The notes under the pieces were generated by a model. It saw only the letters and a program-made list of their open reading frames with translations, did not search any database and was not told the DNA's origin. Shown here in pieces: positions 21,753-61,388 of a stretch of 64,000 bases of DNA. The stretch comes from Isoetes taiwanensis (taxonomy: Eukaryota; Streptophyta; Lycopodiopsida; Isoetales; Isoetaceae): NCBI GenBank assembly GCA_021234155.1, contig JAJEKV010000010.1, forward strand, positions 21,974,833 to 22,038,832, given 5' to 3'. The stretch's first letter is position 1. Each line of letters starts with the position of its first letter. The translations under genes were made by a program, and so were the position numbers.

Positions 21753-23526
21753 TGTCCATTTCTATCAGAATAGAGTTAAGGCAAACAAGGAAAATATTGC
21801 TAAGACAATGCATCAGTTGCATCAGATGATACTCTTAAGGATATTTACTGTTCAAGACATTCTTGCATTGTTATTTGTTCTAGAAATAGAAGTGGATTAT
21901 TCCAAGCATGGTTGAAGTGTGGTGAGTTGGTATAGGCCTAGTAATTATTATTTGTTCTAGAAATAGAAGTGGATTATTCCAAGAGTTCAAATTAGGCAGA
22001 ACCTTGAAAACCTCAAGATCGATACCACTTAAACATATGAAAGAAGGGCAACCTTATGAAGATACCAATCCACAAAGCATTTCATCAACATGCTTCATCA
22101 CATGTATAACCACATTTATAAATTACTTAAACTATATGCATCAACACAAAAGGATTGCTCATCAAGCTCATTAACATCCTAGATCTATGTCCCCAAAAGT
22201 AGCAATTGTCTCCTTATCTGGGATTCTCTGCAATAGAAATTGCAATTTAATATTGAAACAAAGTACTTCGCTTGAAGCACTATATCATCATGCATCTAGA
22301 TTGTGAGAAGTGAATTTAAATTGCTCAAGATTTATATGTCATTGGAAGTGTTAGAAAAGTTGGTTGAACAAAATGATGACATAGGCATATTCTCAAAATT
22401 CTAGCGACGGCTTGAGCCTGGATTAAATTTCTTAGGCTTTAAACTTACATCAAATTCGACATCCACACCATTATAAATTTGTGTGATGTTTGTCAGATTA
22501 CACTATACGTTAATAGTGGGTCCAACCTCACAGGATTGGAACCAAACCGCCGCGATAAATTTCTTGTAGGAATAATTATATGGAGGAAGATGAGATTGCT
22601 TCTTCTTCTTCCTAGAGAAGCAAAAGAAGTATGCAAGGGAAAAGTAATGTCACAAGTGGGAAGAAGACAATAACTATCCGTCATCAAAAGGTCTTCCAAA
22701 CAAACACAACACTCTCAATGTTCTAATTCAATGTAGAAATAGACGAGAAGTTCTTGCACTTCCAATAAAGAATAATGTGGCATATTTTTTGGCTCACTTA
22801 ACGCAAGAATTGCAGAGGAATACTTGACAAATATTAATTCGCCAACTAAACATTCCCATGTGCCACTGGCGGCATGAAATCTGGGGAGCGGATTCCAGGA
22901 AGTCCCCCGACCTGCAGAAGCTGGGAGCGGGTCCTGGAATCAGCAACCCAGTTCCAGGCTGCCACAACATGCTAACTGGGTCGCAGATGATTTGCCTTCA
23001 GATTTACCTTCAGATTTACCTTCGAATTACCTGCTGAGCAGAATCGCCATGCCATTTTCTATTCCCGAGGAAGAACGAGCGAGCCAATTTCCATGTTGTC
23101 AAAATTCAAATCAAGGGACTAGAGCTTTTCGAAACCTCCCCCATTGCTGAAAAATCTAACCCGGACTTCCCTCCAAATTTTGAGGGTCAGATTTCATAGT
23201 AAGACCCCATTATTCCAGGAATATTCGCCCCTTAAAAAGCGAGAAGGCGGGCATTTTCTTCAAACTTCTCATGGATCACGGAGAAAGTGCTCGCCACGTC
23301 AACGTACCAAAAGACGCGCCTGATCCGGCTATGGAGCATTCCCCTCTGCAATCTAGATGTCACTTTTTCACTTTGTTTGCTCCAGAAGAGCCGGCCCGTA
23401 AGGCAGAGAAAAATGGGTTTTTTTTCCAACTTACCCTAATCCAGATTTTGACAGCAATTTCTCAATGCTTCGCAGCATCGACTGGGGTTAAATTTTTGGG
23501 ACAGCTGAAACTTGAGCTTGGACGAA
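21753..23526. other. No gene recognised; includes 5' flank of the PG-rich repeat gene
   Basis: A 33-base direct repeat (TTGTTCTAGAAATAGAAGTG) lies near 21880 and 21950. The last 500 bp are the presumed promoter and 5' leader of the gene starting at 23527. I find no clear core promoter motif. Confidence 0.45.
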
Positions 23527-26500
23527 ATGCCCACAGAGTCTTTGCCTTCTATTTCGAGCGGTAAGCAGCAAAAGAGGATTCCTGGTTCTGGCACTTACAG
23601 TTCAGAGGTAAGTTCAAGTTTGCCCTCTGTTTCAGTTGGTAGCAAGTCTCCTTTGCAGCTTCCTGATATTTCTTCAGGTCCTAAAGTTAATCCTGGTAGT
23701 TCCAAATATACATTTTCTGGAAAAGCAAGTAGGTATTTGAATTTACAGAGTTCGGAGTCAGGTATTTATGAAGCTGGCCCGAGGTCAACTTCTTCAGCGT
23801 ATTCATTTGGGGGTGCAATATCTTTAGGAGCGGCAGATCACAATGCAAGGCCTCAAACCAGTTCAGTTGGCTTCAGTACGCCGACGAAACAGTCTAGAAC
23901 ATATAATGCAAGAGCGAGAGAGAAAAGACCTGCTTACAGCATTATATCAAAGACATCTAAATCCTTTGGGGATTCAAGACCAGGACCAGGATCGTATAAG
24001 TTAGATTCTAGATGCACATCACCTACGCCCCCAGCTTACACCATGGGTGCCAACATCAAGGCCCTTCAAAGAGATGCTAATCCTGGTCCTGGTACTTATT
24101 GTGTTAAAACCCCGCATGGAGGACCTGCATATTCACTCTCTGGCAGAGAGGGACCTCTGCACCGGAGTGATACGCCTGGACCTGGAGCATACGATGTGCT
24201 CAAGGCTAAAGATGCCCCTGCCTACTCTTTATCAGGAAGGTTATCACCACTCAGTAACATGTCGATTCCGGGTCCTGGGAGTTATAAGGTTGAATCAAAG
24301 CCAAACGGCCCATATTTCAGTATGAAGGGTAGAGTTCCAGGCCCTCAGAGCAGTAGCACACCAGGACCTGGCACATATAGCCATGAAAGGAGGTCCACCT
24401 CACCATCCTTCTCTATTTCGTCCAAATTTGAACAGAAAGGTTCGAAGGATGGACCAGGACCAGGCGACTATGATGTAAGAACATCTCGTGATAGTGCTGC
24501 ATATAGTATGCCAGGCAGGTTAATATCACCTATCAGATCAGACTCACCAGGACCAGGATCATATTATACAGATGTTAGACTAAGCCCATCCCCTCCATCT
24601 TATACAATTGGCCCCCGTCTTGACAGGGATAAGCCACTGGAGACGCCTGGACCTGGCACCTATGAAAGACAATGGAGTCCTTCAGGACCTGCATACAGTC
24701 TTACTGGCAAAACACAAGAACGGGCACAAAATAGGAGCCCTGGGCCTGGAGCATATGATCTAGATTGCAGTAGTTCCACGCCTGCCTATAGCCTAGGAGG
24801 CCGTCTCCAGCCAGTTGGGCTGTCTAAAAACCCTGGACCTGGAGCTTATAATCCAAAATCATACCCTTCAGGTCCTTCATTTAGTTTATCAAGAAAGGTC
24901 ATGCAAGCCATGGCACATTCTACCCCTGGCCCTGGTACATATGACGCCAATTCAACATGTGTTGTGTCAAGTCCTCCAGCATTCAGTTTGGGAGGTCGAG
25001 TGAATGGTCTTCACTGTGAGCCAGTTCCAGGACCTGGTGCTTATAATGTCTTTGGTCACGAAGATGGGCCTTTTTACTCTATCAGTGGCCGTCTTTCTCC
25101 AATAGAAAAGAATGATACTCCTGGACCCGGTGCCTACCAAGTTAAATTGCGCCCAGGTTCCCCTTCCTTTACTCTGGGACCTCGTCTAGAGCCTATTATT
25201 GATGATGGTTGTCCAGGACCTGGCACATATACAATACGGTCTAAGTCTGCAGGTCCTGCACACTCCATGTCGTGGAGGACGAGGAATTGGAAACTTGATA
25301 GTGGGCCAGGGCCAGGTGCATATTCAGATATCATACATGTTGTTGGGAAGGACACACCAGCTTTCAGCATTGGATGCAGAGTTAATACCTTAGGAAGACC
25401 AAACACCCCTGGACCAGGTGCCTACAAAGCTGCTGATACCTTTGATGGTATCGCAGTTACTCTCACAGGAAAGCCAAGGTCCTCTTTGGCTTCCCCAACT
25501 CCTGGACCTGGTGCTTATGATGCTAAAGTTGGCCAGGTGGTCAGACAGGCACCTGCATATGAATTTGGAAGGCGTATTGGTGAATCAACTCACGAGGAGA
25601 CTCCTGGACCAGGATCATATGTAATCAAAGCAGTCCCTGATGGTCCTTCATACAGTCTTTATGGCAAAGCTGAAGCTGTTTCAAAGAACACAAACCCTGG
25701 CCCAGGGACATACATCCTAAACATGAGGGGTTCCTCTCCAGAAGCTCCTTCTTTCTCTCTTGGCTGTCATATTGGGCCCTTAAGTAGGGAGAGCAACCCT
25801 GGGCCTGGTGAGTATAATCCTCGTTTACAAAGTTCAGCTCCTGCCTATACATTACATGGGCGGACTACAACACCTAAGAAGTTTGATACCCTTGGGCCTG
25901 GTGCATATGATCCTTCTATCGCCTCTGCAGCTCCATCCTTCAGTCTGGGGGAGCGTATTGATCTGCCTTCTCGTAGCAGGTCACCAGGTCCTGGAGCTTA
26001 CAACCCCAGGCTTTGTCCTGGTACTCCATCTTTCAGCATTCTACGGAAGTTGGACATCAATTCACATAAGGATATACCTGGTCCAGGGACATATGATGTG
26101 ACAAGAGACCCACATGGTCCGTATCATTCATTTGGAAGTAAGCTTGAGCTCCATATGATAGCTGATTTCCCTGGCCCTGGTGCATATGAGCGTTATTCTC
26201 GGCCAGAATCACCAGCTTACAGTTTTGGTGAGAAGATCAATACTATCAAAAGAGAAGAAGTGCCAGGTCCAGGAACATATTTGCAATTAGTAAAAAGGTC
26301 AGCTCCATCATTCTCTTTTGGAGAAAGATTAGGGCCATTAAATCCTTCCGAAGTCCCTGGACCAGGCACATATATTCCTTCAAGAGGAGTAAATGGCCCT
26401 TTCTATTCTTTTGGAGCACGGTTATATCGTCTGAAACTTGGAGGAAATCCTGGTCCAGGAGCTTATGATCCACTTGAAGGCATCTGCCATACAGCATCTC

Positions 26501-27595
26501 CAGCATATTCTCTGGGTGGCAGATGCATGTATGTCTCCAGAAACTTGACTCCAGGTCCTGGAACTTATGAGTTAAGGCCAGGTTCGAACTCTCCTGCATT
26601 TAGCATGTATGGGAAACTGAATCTTGGAGTGCAGAAGGACACACCTGGTCCTGGAACTTATACAGTTAAATCACATCCAGATGGGCCAGCAATCTCTATC
26701 CATGCTGTTTTGAAAGAAACAAATTACGAAATGCTTCCAGGGCCAGGTACTTATGACCTTATTCCTATATTTGTTGTGTGATTTTATAACTGCGTAATTA
26801 TGGAGTGATGTTTTCTATAGTATGTCATCAATCTGCTTTCTTGGACCTTAGTTTTCTCCTTTCTTTCTTTTGCTAGGGGAATATCAAATCAAGACATTCC
26901 CCGATACACCATCTTTTAGCTTTGGAAATAAACTTCAATATATGAAGGCGTCAGAGACTCCTGGCCCTGGCACATATACAGTTCCAGACAGACCAAGCAC
27001 CCCTTCATTTAGCTTGTATCCAAGGCTGCCTGATTGCAACAGGATCCCAACTCCTGGGCCAGGGGCATATAATGACAGAGGTCATAATGCCTGCAAGAGT
27101 CGAAGTCCAACAGTTATTATGGCTGGAAAGCTGCCATTTACAGCCATGGATGCAAAGTTAGGGCCTGGTGTTTATGATCCTGATGTTCGATTCACAAGAC
27201 CTAGTTCTCCCGTATATAGCTTAACTGGCAGATCTGATTACCTAAAAGCACCTGAAACTCCAGGTCCTGGGCAATACAACCCTCAAATGGCAAAGGACTC
27301 TCCCCATTTTTCTATTTTAAAGCGTCTGGGACCAAAAATGAATGATAACATTCCAGGCCCAGGGTCTTATTCAACAGACAAAGCTGCAACAAACCGCCAT
27401 GCGCCAGAGATTAGTTTTGGGATCAAACTACCACCGTGTAACAGATCAGAGACCCCTGGCCCTGGCACATATGCAATAAACTCAAGTATTGAAGGACCTG
27501 CATACAGTTTTGCTGCAAAACCCCTCCATGATGAACTTATGGTTTATGGTTCAGAGGCATATGATGTTGATGACGAAGCTATGCAGGTAGAGTAA
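23527..27595 (+). CDS. Sperm-tail PG-rich repeat (STPGR/SHIPPO-like) protein, 1,312 residues
   Basis: Exons 23527-26746 and 26877-27595. Donor GGGCCAG|GTACTT and acceptor TTTGCTAG|GGG restore an unbroken PGPG repeat (LPGPGEYQI) across the junction; without splicing the frame ends at 26781. I count 36 copies of (P/L)GPGxY at about 33-residue spacing, each followed by a PAYSLGGR-like segment. Two or three weaker copies lie at the N-terminus. The family (ODF3/CIMAP, SHIPPO) lines microtubules of cilia and sperm flagella as outer-dense-fibre or microtubule inner proteins. In plants this would act in motile sperm; that is inference. It is far longer than the few repeats of vertebrate ODF3. The C-terminus is acidic (AYDVDDEAMQVE). 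ATG 23527 is the first ATG of the frame. An internal GTAAGT at 23608 could be a donor, but the frame continues with repeat-like sequence. Confidence 0.9.
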
Positions 27596-33199: not shown

Positions 33200-34061
33200 G
33201 GCATAGAAAACCTACTAGAGTGGCGAGAAGTATTCCGCTACACATACCTATAGTCCCTCAGGATGATGTGGTGGTGCAGGTTTGGAAGGTTCATCCGGAT
33301 GTTGTGTCTTCTTGTTTTGTGCGGTTTTGTTACCGGGTGTTGACTATTCATGACAAGCAAGTGGTCTCTGCAGCTTCCGGGTTCTCGATGGCGCTCGGTT
33401 TGGACGTGGACATGGAGCTCACTTCCCCCACCGAAGGTTAGGGTGCTTCTGTGGCAGGTGGTGCACCGCTGTATCAGGGTGAATGTTCTTGTGAGTCAGT
33501 TTAGGCTGGGTGTGAGCCCTCTTTGCCCTTGTTGTGGCCTTCATCGTGAGACTGTAGAGCATTGTCTGGTTTTATGCCCTCACTTGCAGGCTGCCTGGGA
33601 TTGGGTCAGGGCTCTATTTCAGGTGAGATTGACTAGCCAGCAGTTGCTGCTTCATGTGTATCCTGGTGCTTGGCCGCTCTTGCGGCAACAAGCCTTGCAT
33701 CTGTGCGTGGCTTGGTTGGCGTGGTTGATTTGGAAGCGGCGGCGGTTGTGGATCTTTCAGGGGATTCAGCAGCCTGCAGCCTCTCTGATTCCTCGACTCA
33801 GGTACAAGCTATTTCAAAGTTTTCTGGTGTTCCCGGGATTAGTAGAGCGGAAGTTTGCCATTTGGCGGGACTTCTTGGGTGTTGTAGATGGTGATGGTCG
33901 GTTTGTACAGCAGTAGAGTTGCAGTTTGTTTGTGAGTTTGTTGTGGAGTGTCGAGGTATCGTTGTCTCTTTGGGGCAGTTCTCCTTCCTCCTCACTTGCT
34001 TTGTAACATTACCATTCTTTTAATATATTGATGACACAGTTCTTCAAAAAAAAAAAAAAAA
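33200..34061 (+). mobile_element. 5'-truncated L1-type LINE: zinc-binding RT tail and poly(A)
   Basis: One frame gives VVQVWKVHPD...RVLTIHDK. After a frameshift near 33350-33400 another gives PPKVRVLLWQVVHRC and CPCCGLHRETVEHCL, the reverse-transcriptase zinc-binding (zf-RVT) domain typical of plant L1-like elements. It continues to a stop at 33914. A poly(A) run at 34046-34061 ends the element. The polymerase and endonuclease are missing, so it is immobile. Confidence 0.88.
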
Positions 34062-53746: not shown

Positions 53747-53750
53747 ATAG

Positions 53751-53779
53751 GGGTCTAAGTTAGATATTGGGGTACAAAA
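53751..53779 (+). repeat. Left terminal inverted repeat (29 bp)
   Basis: Begins GGGTCTAAGTTAGATATTGG and ends GGTACAAAA. Identical to the reverse complement of 61282-61310. Preceded by ATAG. Confidence 0.95.
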
Positions 53780-54033
53780 AAGCGCGACAAGCGGAAGCAG
53801 ATTAAGCACGCGAAGCAGCTATTTTTCGCACCTTCTCGTTTCCCGCGCGTCTTTTCGCAAACAATGATCTGGGATGTCAGACCCGTAATCATTCGCGCCG
53901 AAATCGATAATTGATCTGCTGTACGCAGATTATACCCTATTTTACAGTTCGAATTGTACCCTCTGCCTTCCGAGATTTTTTCCTTCCGGCGCTTGCTTCA
54001 TACCTTGCTCTTTGGTTAATTCACTGCTTTTGC

Positions 54034-55813
54034 GATGGCCGGAGAAGGGATTATTCCTCAGCCAGAAACCGAAGTGGCTGCGGATACCGTGGATGAAGAA
54101 GATTGGAACAAATGTATGGACCGAAACCATTCAATCCTTTAAAGAAAAAGGCAAAATAAAAATTTATTTTGCCCGCACTCATCTGAAGCAACAATTGGAG
54201 GACTTGGTCGAGTTCCTGTATCCTGAAGCAGGATTACCAAACAACGAATTGAGGAAACTCGTTGCTTTGGCATTTGCTTGGGAGCATTGTGGTCGTCGCG
54301 AGCAAGATCATGAGGGTCATAAGATAAATTGGGATGCATACAAGTCACGCGAGTTCTTGTTTGGTCGAGAAAAAACAAGGGATGATATGGATGTAAAGAA
54401 AGAAGATGTTAAAAAAATGAAAACCGTACATCCTTCGGGCCAAAGCACACCTCGGCCTTGAGCGTAAGAACACCTCGATGGAATTAAAAGCGAAATCAGG
54501 TCAGCCAAATGAATTTTCTGTTTGCAATTGTAGTTTCAATATTTCTTTGATTGATGAGGAAGTAAAGAAGTTGGAAACGAGAGTTAGATAACCACAAAGC
54601 AGATTTGGCTAAGATTATTAGTAAGATTGAGGTTGATAACAACTCCCTAGCACGGGAGCAAGTAATGATTGATATAGCAAAGAAGGAGGTGAGTAGACTA
54701 CAGAATGAGTTATCTGCTTTGAATGACAAAGCAGATAAAACAGATGAAGATTTGACCCAGATTGCAGATTTGAAGCATAAAATAAGTGGAGAGCTTTACT
54801 TCTGCTCCAAACTGGAAGCTTGCCTTCCAAAGGTAAGTGTTGAAGCAGTGAGACGAAAAGGAGAAGAAGCAAAGGCTAAAAAGCCTCTTTAGAATTCAGA
54901 CTTCAAGAAAGCGGGGGTCTCTTTAGAAGTCGCTAGGCGCTTGATGCACCAGATACTTCAGGAATCTCTATCATGACTATGAAGAGCGGTTGCCGGTTTT
55001 ATGGAGAACTCATGTCTTTGCATGTGGATTGGTATTCAATCCACAATATACTTTGAGTATGAAGTTGCCATGTGAACATGCCTATCACTTGGCATGTTGC
55101 ATGCTTCTGTATGAAAAGAAGGCATGCTTCAGGTGCTTAAAGGAAGTTCCCAGGGATTTGTTTGTGGAACTTGGTTTAGAAGTTGGAGCTGAAGATGGAG
55201 CTGAGATAGCCATCGTGATGGGTTTGGAGCAGGCACTAGTAGTGCTTTTGCTTCACCCTACAAACAAATCAACTTCTTCACCAATATTTGTTCTTTGAGT
55301 CTCCATTAGTTCTGATTATACTCTAGCAAAATTGGCATCACCAAAACACATTACAAAAGGCGTGGCATCACCAAGTCTGTTACAACAGCGGTTGAAGCAT
55401 TAAAAAAAGGTAACCATTTGGTGTTTTTATGTGTTTGTTTTGTAAACTTTATTTCATGTCTATTCTAACTAGTTTCCTTCTTGATTCAGTTGGTAAGGAA
55501 AAGCCCAAAAAGAGAGTAACACGTGCACTAGTGGTTGGCAAAGATGATGAAGAAGAAGAGAGCTGGAGCAATTTTCGGTTGCTTTGTGAGCACCATAAAG
55601 TCGAGGTTGAGGAGTAGAACTGCGGGAGAAAGCTCCAGGGTTGATGAAGTTGTAGATCCGGATAAAGAAGTCGGTGGTGCTGATCACATTGCAACAAAGG
55701 CTGCTGATAAAGGGAAGAATGTAGAAGAAGAAGAAGAAGAACAAGTACAAGCACCTGCGGTGGAAAGAAAGAAGAAGAAGGGTAGGCCCCTAAGAAGATG
55801 CCCCAAAAGGTGA
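54034..55813 (+). pseudogene. 5' part of the transposon's forward gene: acidic N-terminus, coiled coil, RING-like finger
   Basis: ATG 54034 opens MAGEGIIPQPETEVAADTV. After a shift near 54110 the sequence continues WTETIQSFKEKGKIKI and LKQQLEDLVEFLYPEAGLPN. A second shift near 54590 leads into a coiled coil (54599-54890; DLAKIISKIEVDNNSLAREQ, EVSRLQNELSALNDKADKTD). 54990-55298 holds LPCEHAYHLACC...KKACFRCLKEVP, a RING-H2-like CxHx2Hx2C...CxxC whose first cysteine pair is degenerate. A small intron near 55409-55488 (AAAG|GTAACC...GATTCAG) leads to a basic/acidic tail. I infer one multi-exon gene continuing at 56061; exact splicing is unknown. Confidence 0.55.
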
Positions 55814-55910
55814 TCCTCGAAATGTTATTTACAAAATGTTAAGCGGTCGGTGTCGTGTTCATGATCTCGAGTTCACGAAAACTTTGAAATAACACTTGAA
55901 AGTTCTTTGA

Positions 55911-55950
55911 AAACTTTGAAAACTTTGAAAACTTTGAAAACTTTGAAATG
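55911..55950. repeat. Tandem 9-bp repeat TTTGAAAAC
   Basis: Four to five copies in a row, between the two blocks of the forward gene. Confidence 0.85.
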
Positions 55951-56060
55951 ACACTTGTGTTAATTTGTTGAAAGACAGCAATTTGAAGTTGTGAACTAAT
56001 TTGTTTTGTTAAGACTGTTAAGTTGATGTCGAGAATTGTTGATGTTTGAGTTTTTGTTTT

Positions 56061-57037
56061 ATGAATGTTCCGACCCTTAGAAAAGAAAAACTTGTCATCC
56101 TAGACTTAAATGGAGTTCTGGTGAGCACATTTCAAAAAGAACCGAAATTAAAATTCAAACAGAAATTTGAAGAAGCATTATGCGGGGGGAAAGTGGTGTT
56201 GTGCGGACCCGTATCTGATAAAGTTTTTAGAAGGGTGCTTTGCCAGATTTGAGGTAGCCATATGGTCTTCTATGATGAAGCACAACATCATAGAAATCCT
56301 AAATGTTATAGTGCCACCTTCCTTTATAGGAAGGTTCAAGTTCATTTGGGGTTAGAAAGAGTGCGAGGTGATGCCTTTCAGTTTTTCAGGGAATCCGAAC
56401 AAGCCAGTGCTTATGAAGCCAATTGTAAAAGTGTATGAGGCTTTTGAGGATGTAGGGGAGTTAGTGCTAGTTGATGACTCATTGTACAAGACTTTCTTGT
56501 CCCCACAAGACACTTGCTTCATAATTGAAAAATTTGATAATGACATCAATGACAAAGGTTTCAATTTCTTAGCTGCATTTCTACAAACTTGGCTCAATGC
56601 CAAGAATCCTCAAAAGTGGTTGCACGAGCAGTATGTTGAAGATAAAGTTCAAGAAGAGGACATCGACATACTTAGGCTTCTGGCTGACCATCTAAGTGAA
56701 CTAGCGAGGTGGAAAGTGGCTATTCTCAAAAGCATTCAGTTAATGAAGGAAATTGTTAAGGTATGTTGTTTAATTTCATTTAGTTGTGTTGTTATGCTAT
56801 TGAAGTGATTGTAGTAATGTCATTGCTTTCAATTCATTTAGTTGCATTTTTTGTATGTTGTTTGATTTGAATTACTTGGTTTGACAGAACCTAGAAGTTG
56901 CTTGGCCTGAGGAAGCAATTGAGGTAACTACTGCTGCATCAGCTCATAATAAAAATGATAGCAACATAGAAACAGATAAGCAACAGGTTGACAAGGAGCA
57001 TGTTTTGGAGAAAATAGAAACAAGTACAAGTTGGTAG
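56061..57037 (+). pseudogene. FCP1/NIF-type (HAD superfamily) phosphatase domain, 3' part of the transposon's forward gene
   Basis: ATG 56061, then KLVILDLNGVLVSTF, the HAD catalytic motif in the DLNG form usual for plant NIF-domain proteins. Then GCFARFEVAIWSSMMKHNI, FKFIWG and VGELVLVDDSLYKTFLSP (the conserved DDS motif) follow in correct order. Damage: an extra A near 56218 shifts the frame, and TAG at 56353-56355 interrupts IWG. A clean intron (GT 56761, AG 56887) joins MKEIVK to NLEVAWPEEAIEV, and the frame ends at TAG 57035-57037. The normal job of this family is dephosphorylating Ser/Thr, as in the RNA polymerase II tail. Its role in a transposon is unknown; it may be captured host sequence. 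Confidence 0.8.
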
Positions 57038-57259
57038 CCGGGAGATGTCTAAGCTACAAGGCTTGATAGATGATACAAGTATAAACATACTTGATGCAAA
57101 GTGGGAGATAAAGTACATGAAGATAATAATAACAATCCTGCGGGGTAATAATACTTGATTTTGTCAATGAACAGGGATGAAGAGCACGCAAGAGAAGATA
57201 AAACACAAGATACTACTCTTATTGCGTCTACCGGCACTTCAAGTGATGCGACAGAACAA

Positions 57260-57296
57260 ATTCTCCTGAGAAGGAGAATAAGAGTCTATAGACTCT
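57260..57296. repeat. Two adjacent palindromes between convergent genes
   Basis: ATTCTCCT-GAGA-AGGAGAAT (57260-57279) and AGAGTCTATAGACTCT (57281-57296, perfect) sit 220 bp after the forward stop and before the 3' end of the reverse gene. They might help stop or process both transcripts; that is inference. Confidence 0.6.
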
Positions 57297-58127
57297 TTTC
57301 AATATTTATGTAACTTAGCTGTATGTAACCTGAATAATGCAAACAAGTGAGTTATACGATTTTGTACATATATTGTAACAATTTTGTATCTAATGAATAT
57401 AATATTTACCTGCACTTGCAGAGTTTCTACTTGCAAAATTGTTGTCCCAGTTTATATTTGAATGTAATGGTTTCTCCTATGCTTGTCTCGTATCCAAAGC
57501 ATGAAGTCCAAATCCTAATTGGTTAAACAAACAAACACAGATATGAAGCCAATCTTTGAACATATGCATGTAAAAAGGTTTAAGAGTATTTACTTTGTGC
57601 ATTGTCTTGAGCAGTCCCCAATTGAACACTTGCAGAAAGTTTCCACCATTTGTTTCCAAGGACCAAACTGAAGGGACAGACAGTTAAGCATAAACTCTAA
57701 AAACAATTAGCACGTCAGCAGACAAAGCAGAAACAGACAAAGCACCAGCAGCAGTACATTGATCAAGTCAGTCAGGACTACAAATTTCTGTGCAACAAAG
57801 AATTTGTTAGCTTCCATTGATAGGTTTGTTAGAAACAATAGGTTTGTTAGAAACAATGTAGCAGCAATGAGCCACTTTACATGTTAATTGAGTGCTTCTG
57901 CCGCTTCGAAGCAGAAGCAGAAAAAACAGTCAGCAGTGTTAGCACTCTACAGGAAGGGATGCCATCACTTTTTGGCATGTCTCTTCACTCATCTTGAACT
58001 TGTTGTTGCCAAGACTCTCCATATCAAATTTCACTTGTCTAATAAGGTGACTGTACACACTAGCAACTGGCTTGTCCACTAATAACTCAAAGTGGAGTGC
58101 ATCTGTCTGCTTGTAGTAGTGGCGAAA

Positions 58128-61100
58128 CTATGACTTCTCCCACACCAAATCACGAGAACCCCATGAGTCTTCATATGCATCTAACAATGTATTTTTAGTC
58201 TCTGTACACCTAAGAACATAAAAGTCAACTCCTTCATCATCCTCTGGATCTGCATTTACAGCAAAGTTATCTCCAACTTCTAGAACAGAACTGAGGTATT
58301 CATTAGCCTCATCATCATCCTCTTCTTCATCCGCATCCTCATCTTCATCTTGAACTGCTTTTGTTGGCTGATTGTTTTCTGTAGATTTCTTCAACTTCAG
58401 TTCTGTTGTGGACCAAGCTCCCAATCGAGCTTTGTTCATGCAATCATCCCATTTTCCATGAAAGCAAAAGGGACAAAAAACAAGAGAGACACACGTGGGC
58501 AACTTTTGCGAGGATTTGTTTTGTCACATGGTCTGATGGAATGAAGTTTAGAGCTCCCACAAAGTGATCTCCATTCCCTCTTTTCAGATTTGTCTACATT
58601 TTCGGGTTCAATATGCCAAAAAAACCTGCAATATAGAACAGAAAAATGTCACCTCAAATGAAGAAGAATGCAATGGTACTGATTGAATTTACCTTCTTAT
58701 ATTTGGGTCTGGTGGGTTGTTCATCATATACCAATTCATGAAATCCACAACGTCTTTGGCACGCTCCAATTTCCAGGAATCATACTTCAATTGTTCTCTT
58801 GCCAAAATCCTTTTTAGGATTGCACCTTGTCCATCATGTTCTCCTTTCCCATGAGAGCTGGCAAAAAATTCCATTCATACTCAATTCCTTCACTATTGAC
58901 ATAGTTCCTTCCTAAATACCAAAAAGGTCTTGCTCCTTTGAACTGTGCTGTGCAACCATCACTCCAAAAAATATGTTTGTTGTACAAAATATTTTGTACT
59001 CTGAGCCAGTCTGCATGAACTTTCAAGCAATGTTGTACAAACTCACTGCTATGATCTCTATCATCTGAAATATAAAAATGTACTTCCTTTATGATTCTCC
59101 TCTCATTACTGCTGATGATCTGCTGAGTTGTCTTCCTCTTTCTTTGCTGCTTTTCCTTCTCTAGTTCCCTTCTCTCTGCTTCCTTAGCTTCCATATCTTC
59201 TATCTCATCTCGGGTTGCATGTCTATATGTGATATGAACCAATATTGATGCCGATCAGGTGCCGCGGTGGCAAGATTGTGCCTCTTTCTGAATTTTAAAA
59301 CTGTAATTTTCAGCAAAATCAATAACCGAGACAACTGCACCTTCAGGAAAAGTATCCAAGCACTTCCTGAATTGCTTTGCCTGCCAGTGTGCAACATAAT
59401 TGTGTGGGATGAATTGTACCAGTGTCTTCGAAGCATGCTGCTGGAATTGGGCCAGGCTCTCTTTCTTGTATACAAGTCTAGTTACCTTTTTGGTTTCTTT
59501 CCCGCCATTTTTTCTTGGTGGTCTCCTTCATGTAACCAACCTCTTGCTTGTTTTTTGGAAAACAAAGATCAGTTTGTAAGTTTGCAAAGACAAGCACAAC
59601 AATCACAAGCACAAAAATCATTTAAGCACAAATGCCAAATACACTACCTTTTCAAACTGTTTCCACTCCACTTTGTAATCGACTCCTCCTTCTCCTTTGG
59701 ACATATTGGCAACCTTTGTTTGTAAGACCACCGAAAATTTGTTTGTAAGATGTTGCATCAATCATCTTAACAACTCAAAATAGAATGTTCAAACATCTTA
59801 ACATTAAAAAAAGAGTACCTTTTCAATCCACAATCCTTGCATGCCACCTGCAGACAATTATGTTTGTGCCACTCTTCATCTTCATCCTTAGGGCGATCAT
59901 TTGCCTCCAAAAATCACTAGTGGATTTATAAACATGGTTCTTGGTCGCACAAAAGTTACCATCACCACAAACAAAGACAAGTACAAATGCTTGCAATCTT
60001 TATGCACGCCATTTGGATCTGTTTCGATTTTGTTGAGTGCTTGCATCACATATTCAAAGTGCATGTGATATTGGCGTGACAAGTTTCTCTTTCATTTAAA
60101 GCCCTCACTAATGATGGCTTCAACAATTCAAATGTCTTATTTGGGTAATCTTAATGTCATTGAATTCCTTCTTGAAGTTCATGTAAAATTGCAACTGCAA
60201 ACAAAGAAGATCTATATAGAAACAGATATATGCAACAGAAGAAACATACTAAGCAGGGAAATCACCTGAGATATTTCAAGCAGTTGTATTGGATGATCAA
60301 TTTTATCGCCATCTGCTGTAACAAACTTTCTCACATGCTTCCTAGATGGTGAAACTTCGTGTGTTTTATGTCCAGAACTTGTAAACACAATTCCTAACCT
60401 CGTCACTCAATGCATCACACCTCTTTTTCCTTGAAAACATTGACCACGGACCACATTCTTGGTCTGCCATTATTCTTCTTCTGGTTGCAGCAACAACAGA
60501 TTTTCTAGATATATGAAGGAGACGTGCGACAACAGATTGGTTGATGGATTTTGCTGATGAAGATACCATTTGCAAAGTAGACTTTCTTGCTTGCAATACA
60601 TCTGTCTTCCTTAATTTCTTTTGTTCATTGAATGTCTCCTGAACATTTTTAATCACATTCTTCATGATCTTGCTTTGTTCATGATCAACAAAATCCACTT
60701 CCAGTGGCAATTTCGCCTTCACTCTCTTCACAAATCTGTGCACCACCATTGCTTTATCCCCTTCTTTCAAAGGCTTTGTGATTTCGTTGAAATAATCGTC
60801 CATTTTTTTGGACAATTCTTGAAGCCTTCTCGCACTCAGGCCTCGTTCAATTTCGTGGTGCAAGTTTTCTTTCTCTCTCTCCCTTTCTCTTTTTATTTTT
60901 GTCTTGATTGCCTTCTTCTCTCGGCTTGAATTTCCGGAAAACTTTGAGTCTCTTTTCCTCATCCAAATCAGAACCCGATTGATCCATTGAGGATCGTGAT
61001 GTGCGAGAATTTTGCGATCTGAGAAACCGTGATCTACAAAGAACAGTTTCGTTTGAGGTACAAGCCGAATGATCATTCCCGCCACAAAAGAATTCAAGAA
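58128..61100 (-). pseudogene. Transposase-like gene (DFAENY / SDGC / SHGKG family), frameshifted
   Basis: Reading down from 61100: basic helical N-terminus (EIERGLSARRLQELSKKMDD, MVVHRFVKRVKAKLPLEVDF), VSPSRKHVRKFV, FELLKPSLVRALNERETC, YHMHFEYVMQALNKIETD, WHKHNCLQVACKDCGLK, FIPHNYVAHWQAKQF, VVSVIDFAENYSFKIQKEAQ, YISDDRDHSSEFVQHCL, IFWSDGCTAQFKGARPFWYL, FFASSHGKGEHDGQGAILKR, GKWDDCMNKARLG. The C-terminal part is very acidic and ends VLEVGDNFAVNADPEDDEG. The aspartates in DFAENY and SDGC fit an RNase-H-fold (DDE) nuclease; this is inference. One-base shifts occur near 60370, 60140, 60080, 59990 and 59880, and a TGA follows KEAQSCHRGT near 59257. GT-AG introns are visible between several blocks. 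Confidence 0.72.
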
Positions 61101-61281
61101 ACAGACCCCGCCATCTCAAAACAGACCGCGCCAGATCATTTCGGAACCGAATTTGATTTTCGGAGCAGCCATGTCATCGATCCGGAAGCAATTTGCTAAA
61201 AACGGATCATCCTGTTCCCGCTCTCCAAGCACCCCCAGCACAGCAGATCAAGCACGAAAAGCAGAGCGTCCGGACGGGTGC

Positions 61282-61310
61282 TTTTGTACCCCAATATCTA
61301 ACTTAGACCC
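61282..61310 (-). repeat. Right terminal inverted repeat (29 bp)
   Basis: Exact reverse complement of 53751-53779. Followed by ATAG (61311-61314). Confidence 0.95.
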
Positions 61311-61388
61311 ATAGTAGCTTTCACTTTTTTAAGCAGGTCCCGTCGTAGCATGTTTTTGTTAAACTCTTCCATAAATGAGATTTTGAAA

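Follow-up and report, generated by a model that had tools for sequence, protein, structure and literature searches.

A disrupted two-gene DNA transposon in Isoetes taiwanensis and its family with 4-bp target-site duplications

The element and its copies

The stretch of DNA analysed here (the window) comprises 64,000 nucleotides of the Isoetes taiwanensis genome (assembly GCA_021234155.1, contig JAJEKV010000010.1, positions 21,974,833 to 22,038,832, forward strand). At window positions 53751-61310 it contains a 7,560-bp unit whose first 29 bases are the exact reverse complement of its last 29, with the pieces of one gene (gene 1) on the reverse strand and those of another (gene 2) on the forward strand, both disrupted. 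A sequence-only reading, made by a model from the letters and the open reading frames (ORFs), had described this unit as a two-gene DNA transposon of unplaced superfamily. The genome searches reported below bear out its firm boundaries, its two genes and the existence of a mobile family.

The left terminal inverted repeat (TIR; 53751..53779, forward strand) and the right one (61282..61310, reverse strand) are flanked by ATAG on both sides (53747..53750 and 61311..61314, no strand assigned), the flanks reading ...CCATAG on the left and ATAGTAG... on the right. At up to 3 mismatches, the 29-mer occurs within the window at the two element ends only, and 100 shuffles gave none. Searching the genome with the joined flanks and one ATAG returned, besides the element's own two places, 14 further matches of 70-84% identity, 13 of which span the junction. 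Six of these 13 sites were retrieved, and all six read through a single CATAG free of any insert. Because the empty sites carry one CATAG and no insert, the ATAG is the duplication made on insertion, and the unit at 53751-61310 is an insertion with an ATAG target-site duplication.

The end queries were run against the element's own genome (1.658 Gb searched), with the reversed sequence as a control. The 29-mer gave 259 forward and 269 reverse matches (528 in all) at up to 3 mismatches, compared with 0 + 0 for the control, so that the ends recur hundreds of times. For a sample of paired ends, we took, among the 100 exact places listed, every neighbouring convergent pair no longer than 8 kb, together with a single 13.8-kb pair, leaving aside the remaining pairs of at least 12.8 kb; with the window pair this made 23. 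Four were 258-273 bp in size, seven 2.2-4.3 kb, eleven 7.2-7.6 kb and one 13.8 kb. An exact 4-bp duplication flanks 15 of the 23, compared with 2 of 506 mispaired ends, and duplications of exactly 3, 5 or 6 bp were found in none of the 23. A chance origin of the ends is ruled out by the genome counts against the control, the exact duplications and the shuffles of the window.

The copies differ in what lies between the ends. One (L090) is 92.6% identical to the window element over its full length, another (L092) is an internal deletion, and a third (L091) has the ends alone in common. The smallest are 258-bp miniature inverted-repeat transposable elements (MITEs) with the same ends. Two of the sampled pairs, L032 and L033 on contig C156, appear to be one MITE insertion in inverted form 122 kb apart, either a duplication or an assembly artefact, and are not independent in the duplication count. 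The 13.8-kb pair (L061/L062/L093; C908:17760376-17774169) has palindromic flanks and is broken by an insert that, judged by eye, resembles a long interspersed nuclear element. Insertion into hairpin targets was considered and rejected: the mean palindrome score was 4.8, against 3.9 for mispaired ends, the set was not distinct, and only L061/L062 was palindromic.

Gene 1 and its lineages

Gene 1 is read here in four exon regions on the reverse strand. From its start, these are an N-terminal region (60366..61115) that looks helix-turn-helix-like by eye and has homologous exons in L089 and L101; a Cys/His-rich, perhaps zinc-binding region of approximate extent (59830..60200; relatives L090:5994-6467 and L101:4549-6093); the catalytic region (58689..59527); and a Cys-rich C-terminal region (57939..58650, limits approximate). 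The conserved blocks quoted in the sequence-only reading were all located in reverse-strand ORFs of the catalytic region, DFAENY in 59255-59527, SDDRDHS and SDGCTAQFK in 58814-59254, and SHGKGEHDG in 58689-58874. Its description of the gene as frameshifted also agrees with what is seen, namely an in-frame stop between the first two of these pieces and a frame change between the last two.

When the catalytic exon piece was used as a genome query, 150 of 5,545 candidates were scored. These relatives cluster loosely in three tiers, near 95%, 77% and 50% identity, though intermediate values occur, and in many of them the catalytic exon is open over about 285 amino acids; intact catalytic exons therefore exist in the genome, although the window copy is broken. 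In an alignment of 37 catalytic exons, DFAEN, WSDG and HDG each retain their aspartate in at least 90%, and KGEHDG its glutamate in 37 of 37; the third acid of the putative catalytic core may be the E or the D of KGEHDG.

Ratios of nonsynonymous to synonymous substitution (dN/dS) were computed on stop-free exons only, with some sequences shared among pairs. For the catalytic exon, six pairs that set a sequence of the 95% tier against one of the 77% tier, which we treat as subfamilies, gave dN/dS of 0.16-0.19, and four same-tier pairs gave 0.73-0.88; one comparison within the 50% tier (L075 with L079) gave 0.14, and deeper pairs were saturated. This is the pattern of proteins that were apparently under constraint while the family spread and that could decay more freely once a copy had inserted. 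It is consistent with broken copies having moved in trans, as the miniature copies with perfect ends suggest too. Mobilisation by an intact relative, as the sequence-only reading had proposed, is thus a plausible, if unproven, history for the broken window copy.

The more distant relatives led to a second set of ends. Of 28 gene 1 matches of at least 58% identity, nine are accompanied on both sides by a listed, exact window-type end no more than 9 kb away, 16 on one side and three on neither. None of the ten matches of 51% identity or less on contigs C1-C911 has a listed exact window-type end within that distance. The right end of L072/L119 pointed to different ends, which were predicted from one copy and then searched for genome-wide. 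The corresponding 25-mer has 317 forward and 305 reverse matches (622 in all) at up to 2 mismatches, compared with 0 in the control, and among the places listed it lies within 9 kb of six of the ten low-identity matches, on both sides in three. In a sample of 22 pairs, drawn among the convergent pairs listed, five measured 271-282 bp, ten about 1.7 kb and seven 8.9-11.6 kb. Exact 4-bp duplications flank 20 of these 22 pairs (mispaired control, 6 of 462), and in the catalytic exon this tier has 53-61% identity with L002. From these counts and duplications it follows that diverged lineages use different ends under the same 4-bp rule. A break on the left of L072 was also tried as an element end and ruled out, since the sequence that L071 and L074 have in common continues past it.

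These data bear on whether the protein occurs outside inverted-repeat pairs, which the sequence-only reading had named as a way to disprove it. Most close relatives lie next to the window-type ends, 25 of 28 having an exact end within 9 kb on at least one side, and the diverged tier has its second ends, while for lineages L100 and L101 ends were looked for and not found. The other result named there as disproof, ends confined to this place or lacking 4-bp duplications, is contradicted by the hundreds of recurrences and their duplications. The data also bear on the idea of the gene pair as an old host locus, carried along by another transposon to which the inverted ends belong. Many copies are indeed disrupted and non-autonomous, as this idea would have it, but separate lineages of the gene pair are found inside two different TIR families, both of which show 4-bp duplications, and the ORF lists of L089 and L090 hold no further large gene in the part of the ORFs scanned. 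We regard an old host locus as very improbable.

When the end regions of the two TIR families were pooled, AAGCAC was the commonest 6-mer. Nine miniature copies, which are related to each other, carry 3-5 occurrences each per ~270 bp, whereas the 56,440 bp of the window outside the element hold 37. Long copies show the enrichment less strongly and less evenly: the window element has 1 and 3 occurrences in the outer 250 bp at its two ends, and 14 in the inner 7,060 bp. The motif was chosen after inspection, and it is offered as a lead: a candidate binding motif common to families with differing terminal repeats.

A conserved partner gene on the forward strand

Gene 2, disrupted in the window copy, extends over 54035..57050 on the forward strand, its start taken by eye as the first ATG and its end being approximate. 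It would encode, in this order, an N-terminal helical part, a coiled coil, a RING-like zinc finger, a basic region and a NIF/HAD phosphatase-like part, and the same order is found in relatives. The RING-like piece (54945..55298) matches Pfam RING models weakly (E 0.02 for the window piece and 0.0077 for L092, both under the cut-off), and its Cys/His pattern is retained in L100 and L101. The disrupted NIF/HAD piece (56043..56808) itself matches Pfam NIF at E 0.013, and the corresponding exon of a relative (L090:2293-3009), which has a coiled coil and a RING-like Cys/His stretch upstream, matches NIF (PF03031) at E 3.4e-15 with 56.5 bits, against a curated cut-off of 21.8. Phosphatases of the NIF kind carry the motif DxDxT/V. 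As the motif of the NIF part reads DLNGV or DINGV, phosphatase activity of the product is uncertain.

A genome search with the NIF exon yielded 4,691 first-look candidates and 191 matches, of which 150 places were listed. For 41 of the best 50 of the 150 gene 1 matches, a NIF exon is listed no more than 10 kb away; it is convergent with gene 1 in all 41, at a median gap of 2.0 kb. In the 50% tier (L072 with L119), the N-terminal, RING and NIF parts again lie in the same order on the strand opposite the transposase. Selection has apparently acted on this gene too, as the NIF part shows dN/dS of 0.19-0.23 in six pairs between subfamilies; within the 77% tier, where the changes are few, the values are 0.29-0.48, and a single pair from the 95% tier differs by 3 nonsynonymous changes and no synonymous one. 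Gene 2 is a conserved partner of gene 1, an unexpected result and one that the sequence-only reading, which had counted two genes, did not recognise. Its product is most likely an accessory protein.

The alternative that gene 2 was captured from the host, and travels as a passenger with no role in transposition, deserves weighing. Plant transposons often capture genes. Moreover, the NIF part was not detected (tblastn, E 0.01) in L100 or L101, two further lineages with 52-54% identity in the catalytic exon. The RING part is nonetheless present in both, the convergent placement holds in 41 of 41 neighbours, the domain order is the same in the second-TIR lineage, and the NIF part has a dN/dS of about 0.2 between subfamilies; a passenger is accordingly improbable in our view. 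The owner of the RING part in L101/L118 is unsure, as it lies on the same strand as a complete transposase and opposite a second transposase remnant.

A third transposase lineage (L083 type; C935:46973/49568 and C1038:9250734/9252960) also has a convergent NIF exon 1.6-1.8 kb off, 41% identical to that of L090.

Fold, mechanism and superfamily

The fold of the gene 1 protein was approached by structure prediction. An AlphaFold2 model of a compact relative (L114), built on 37 sequences, reached a predicted local distance difference test score (pLDDT) of 69.7 and a predicted template modelling score of 0.64. It shows the RNase H order of strands and helices, with acids at residues 77, 171 and 210/212. 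In VIA-align comparisons, the model scored Z 8.9 with the simian T-lymphotropic virus (STLV) intasome, a retroviral integrase, 8.2 with IstA, 8.1 with SETMAR and 8.7 with the Mos1 transposase (165 residues at 3.7 Å). The likeness to Mos1 mariner transposase and retroviral integrases lies in the predicted RNase H-like core with three acids; the structural alignments have 8-17% identity and a sequence-level relation was not seen, and mariner duplicates TA, unlike the 4-bp duplications here. No Sola transposase was among the PDB structure-comparison rows. A search of BFVD with the same model gave five matches at E ≤ 0.001, by name mostly plant pararetrovirus polyproteins with TM-scores of at most 0.3, which were of no use except to point to the RNase H class. 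Stray Pfam matches of the 37 catalytic exons, to an IFT80 propeller (7.6e-5, in 2 of 37) and to Pro-kumamolisin (0.0029, in 14 of 37), were taken as chance.

From the model, an RNase H-like fold is likely for the gene 1 protein, and within that class a DDD/E transposase is chosen because of the conserved acids and the element ends. Together with the constraint between subfamilies, these make gene 1 very probably a DDD/E transposase gene. The element as a whole is best explained as a disrupted member of a TIR DNA transposon family, with gene 1 as its transposase and gene 2 as a conserved second component, and we put the probability of this explanation at roughly 0.85.

Several results weigh against it. 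Eight of the 23 window-type pairs have no exact duplication (four are off at one base, two at two and two at three), as is the case for 2 of the 22 second-type pairs, and 9 of the 50 gene 1 matches have no listed NIF exon inside 10 kb; the undetected NIF part of L100 and L101 belongs here as well. A first AlphaFold2 model, from 23 sequences, had a pLDDT of 48.6 and was too poor, which made its structure search meaningless. The relative modelled in its place is 58% identical to L002 and belongs to a lineage whose ends were not sought. Its top Foldseek match in the PDB, Rous sarcoma virus integrase, had an E-value of 2.5e-3 and is not significant alone. Argonaute-type chains (Z up to 8.7) and a de novo design (8.9) equalled the integrases, and a VIA-align Z of 7-8 is common by the tool's own warning. 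The comparison with DDE proteins that the sequence-only reading had suggested therefore supports an RNase H-like fold, as predicted, without separating integrases and Mos1 from Argonautes by score. The gene 1 protein has no transposase match in Pfam, NCBIfam, PHROGs or PDB sequences, and no relatives were found in viral, prokaryote, plasmid and phage sequence collections.

The gene 1 transposase would bind the inverted ends, perhaps together with nearby AAGCAC repeats, and would excise the element by the DDD/E active site of its predicted RNase H fold. The element would then be joined to cuts staggered by 4 bp, from which a 4-bp duplication would follow, and the gene 2 protein may serve as an accessory component of transposition. 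A transposase-like protein with no match in the libraries named above is tied to defined ends, footprints and miniature copies, which should help to annotate seed-free plant genomes. The conserved RING-like and NIF/HAD partner gene makes a testable two-component system, and two end sets with matching transposases are material for studying end recognition.

A transposase with a second protein is also found in MuDR, En/Spm and PIF/Harbinger elements of plants; the second protein is the likeness, and the proteins themselves and the duplication lengths are others. Chapaev and Academ make 3-4-bp duplications with transposases of their own, and duplication length alone does not exclude them. Duplications are 8 bp long in hAT, 3 bp in PIF/Harbinger and 2-3 bp in CACTA elements. 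For Mutator, PMC10741241 gives 7-12 bp. The duplications here are 4 bp long, and the Pfam transposase models of these four superfamilies are absent among the matches. The same source describes Tc1/Mariner with a TA duplication, where the 4-bp duplications here vary in sequence, and Ginger with a Gypsy-like integrase and TIRs of 40-270 bp; the TIR here is 29 bp, and no integrase-core Pfam model matched the 37 catalytic exons at E ≤ 0.1. Searches of the open-licence literature by motif strings, by NIF-transposon-TIR terms and by titles and abstract starts found no paper on the element family.

The closest agreement is with Sola, of which three groups, Sola1, Sola2 and Sola3, were reportedly described by Bao et al. 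in 2009. According to PMC10741241, Sola elements have a DDD transposase, a 4-bp duplication, a length of mostly 2-9 kb (>15 kb allowed) and TIRs of 11-1124 bp, and occur in moss and uncommonly in flowering plants; PMC6786969 reports them from fern genomes. The family agrees in its 4-bp duplication (15 of 23 and 20 of 22 pairs) and in its size and TIR (7.56 kb with 29 bp for the element, 7.2-7.6 kb and 8.9-11.6 kb for long pairs). As regards a DDD-type transposase, it has the conserved acids and a predicted fold among RNase H-like enzymes, and the third acid may be E or D. By these features, compared with published descriptions, it probably belongs to Sola or next to it; the superfamily itself is defined by similarity of sequence. 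We call the family Sola-like, and a variant on account of its conserved second gene; the RING/NIF partner is not mentioned in the portions of the Sola descriptions examined. Second genes are on record in Sola. Sola1-1_Ec32 of Ectocarpus (PMC12477816) shares the 4-bp duplication and a second gene on the strand opposite the transposase, and differs in its 21.5-kb length and in its extra gene, which is for a ParB-like/DNA methyltransferase protein. Sola2 elements of amoebae (PMC3627910) share the 4-bp duplication and the possession of a second gene, which there is Fanzor1.

That the family forms a superfamily of its own, likewise making 4-bp duplications, would accord with the lack of a transposase model match in Pfam and NCBIfam, or of any match in PHROGs or PDB sequences, and with the conserved partner on which the Sola texts, as far as examined, are silent. 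We consider it unlikely, since the comparable features of Sola agree (duplication length, 2-9 kb size, short TIR and a predicted DDD/E-type core) and Sola is reported from moss (PMC10741241) and ferns (PMC6786969). The label of an unplaced superfamily, given by the sequence-only reading, accordingly stands as regards the databases and gives way as regards the features. Of a doubtful kind, too, is a fuller proposal in which the family is a superfamily or a deep Sola branch of two components, a DDD/E transposase and a convergent partner under selection with coiled-coil, RING-like and NIF/HAD phosphatase-like parts; the partner might act on host ubiquitin or on C-terminal domain (CTD) phosphorylation, and so aid transposition or evade silencing.

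Elsewhere in the window, long forward-strand ORFs of 1,090 and 247 amino acids with PG-rich repeats lie at 23509-27595. The longer matches Pfam SHIPPO-rpt, the sperm-tail PG-rich repeat, at E 3.5e-101, and such a gene fits a plant with flagellated, swimming sperm. At 33344-33916, also on the forward strand, a reverse-transcriptase zinc-binding domain (zf-RVT, E 1.3e-12) marks a retroelement remnant.

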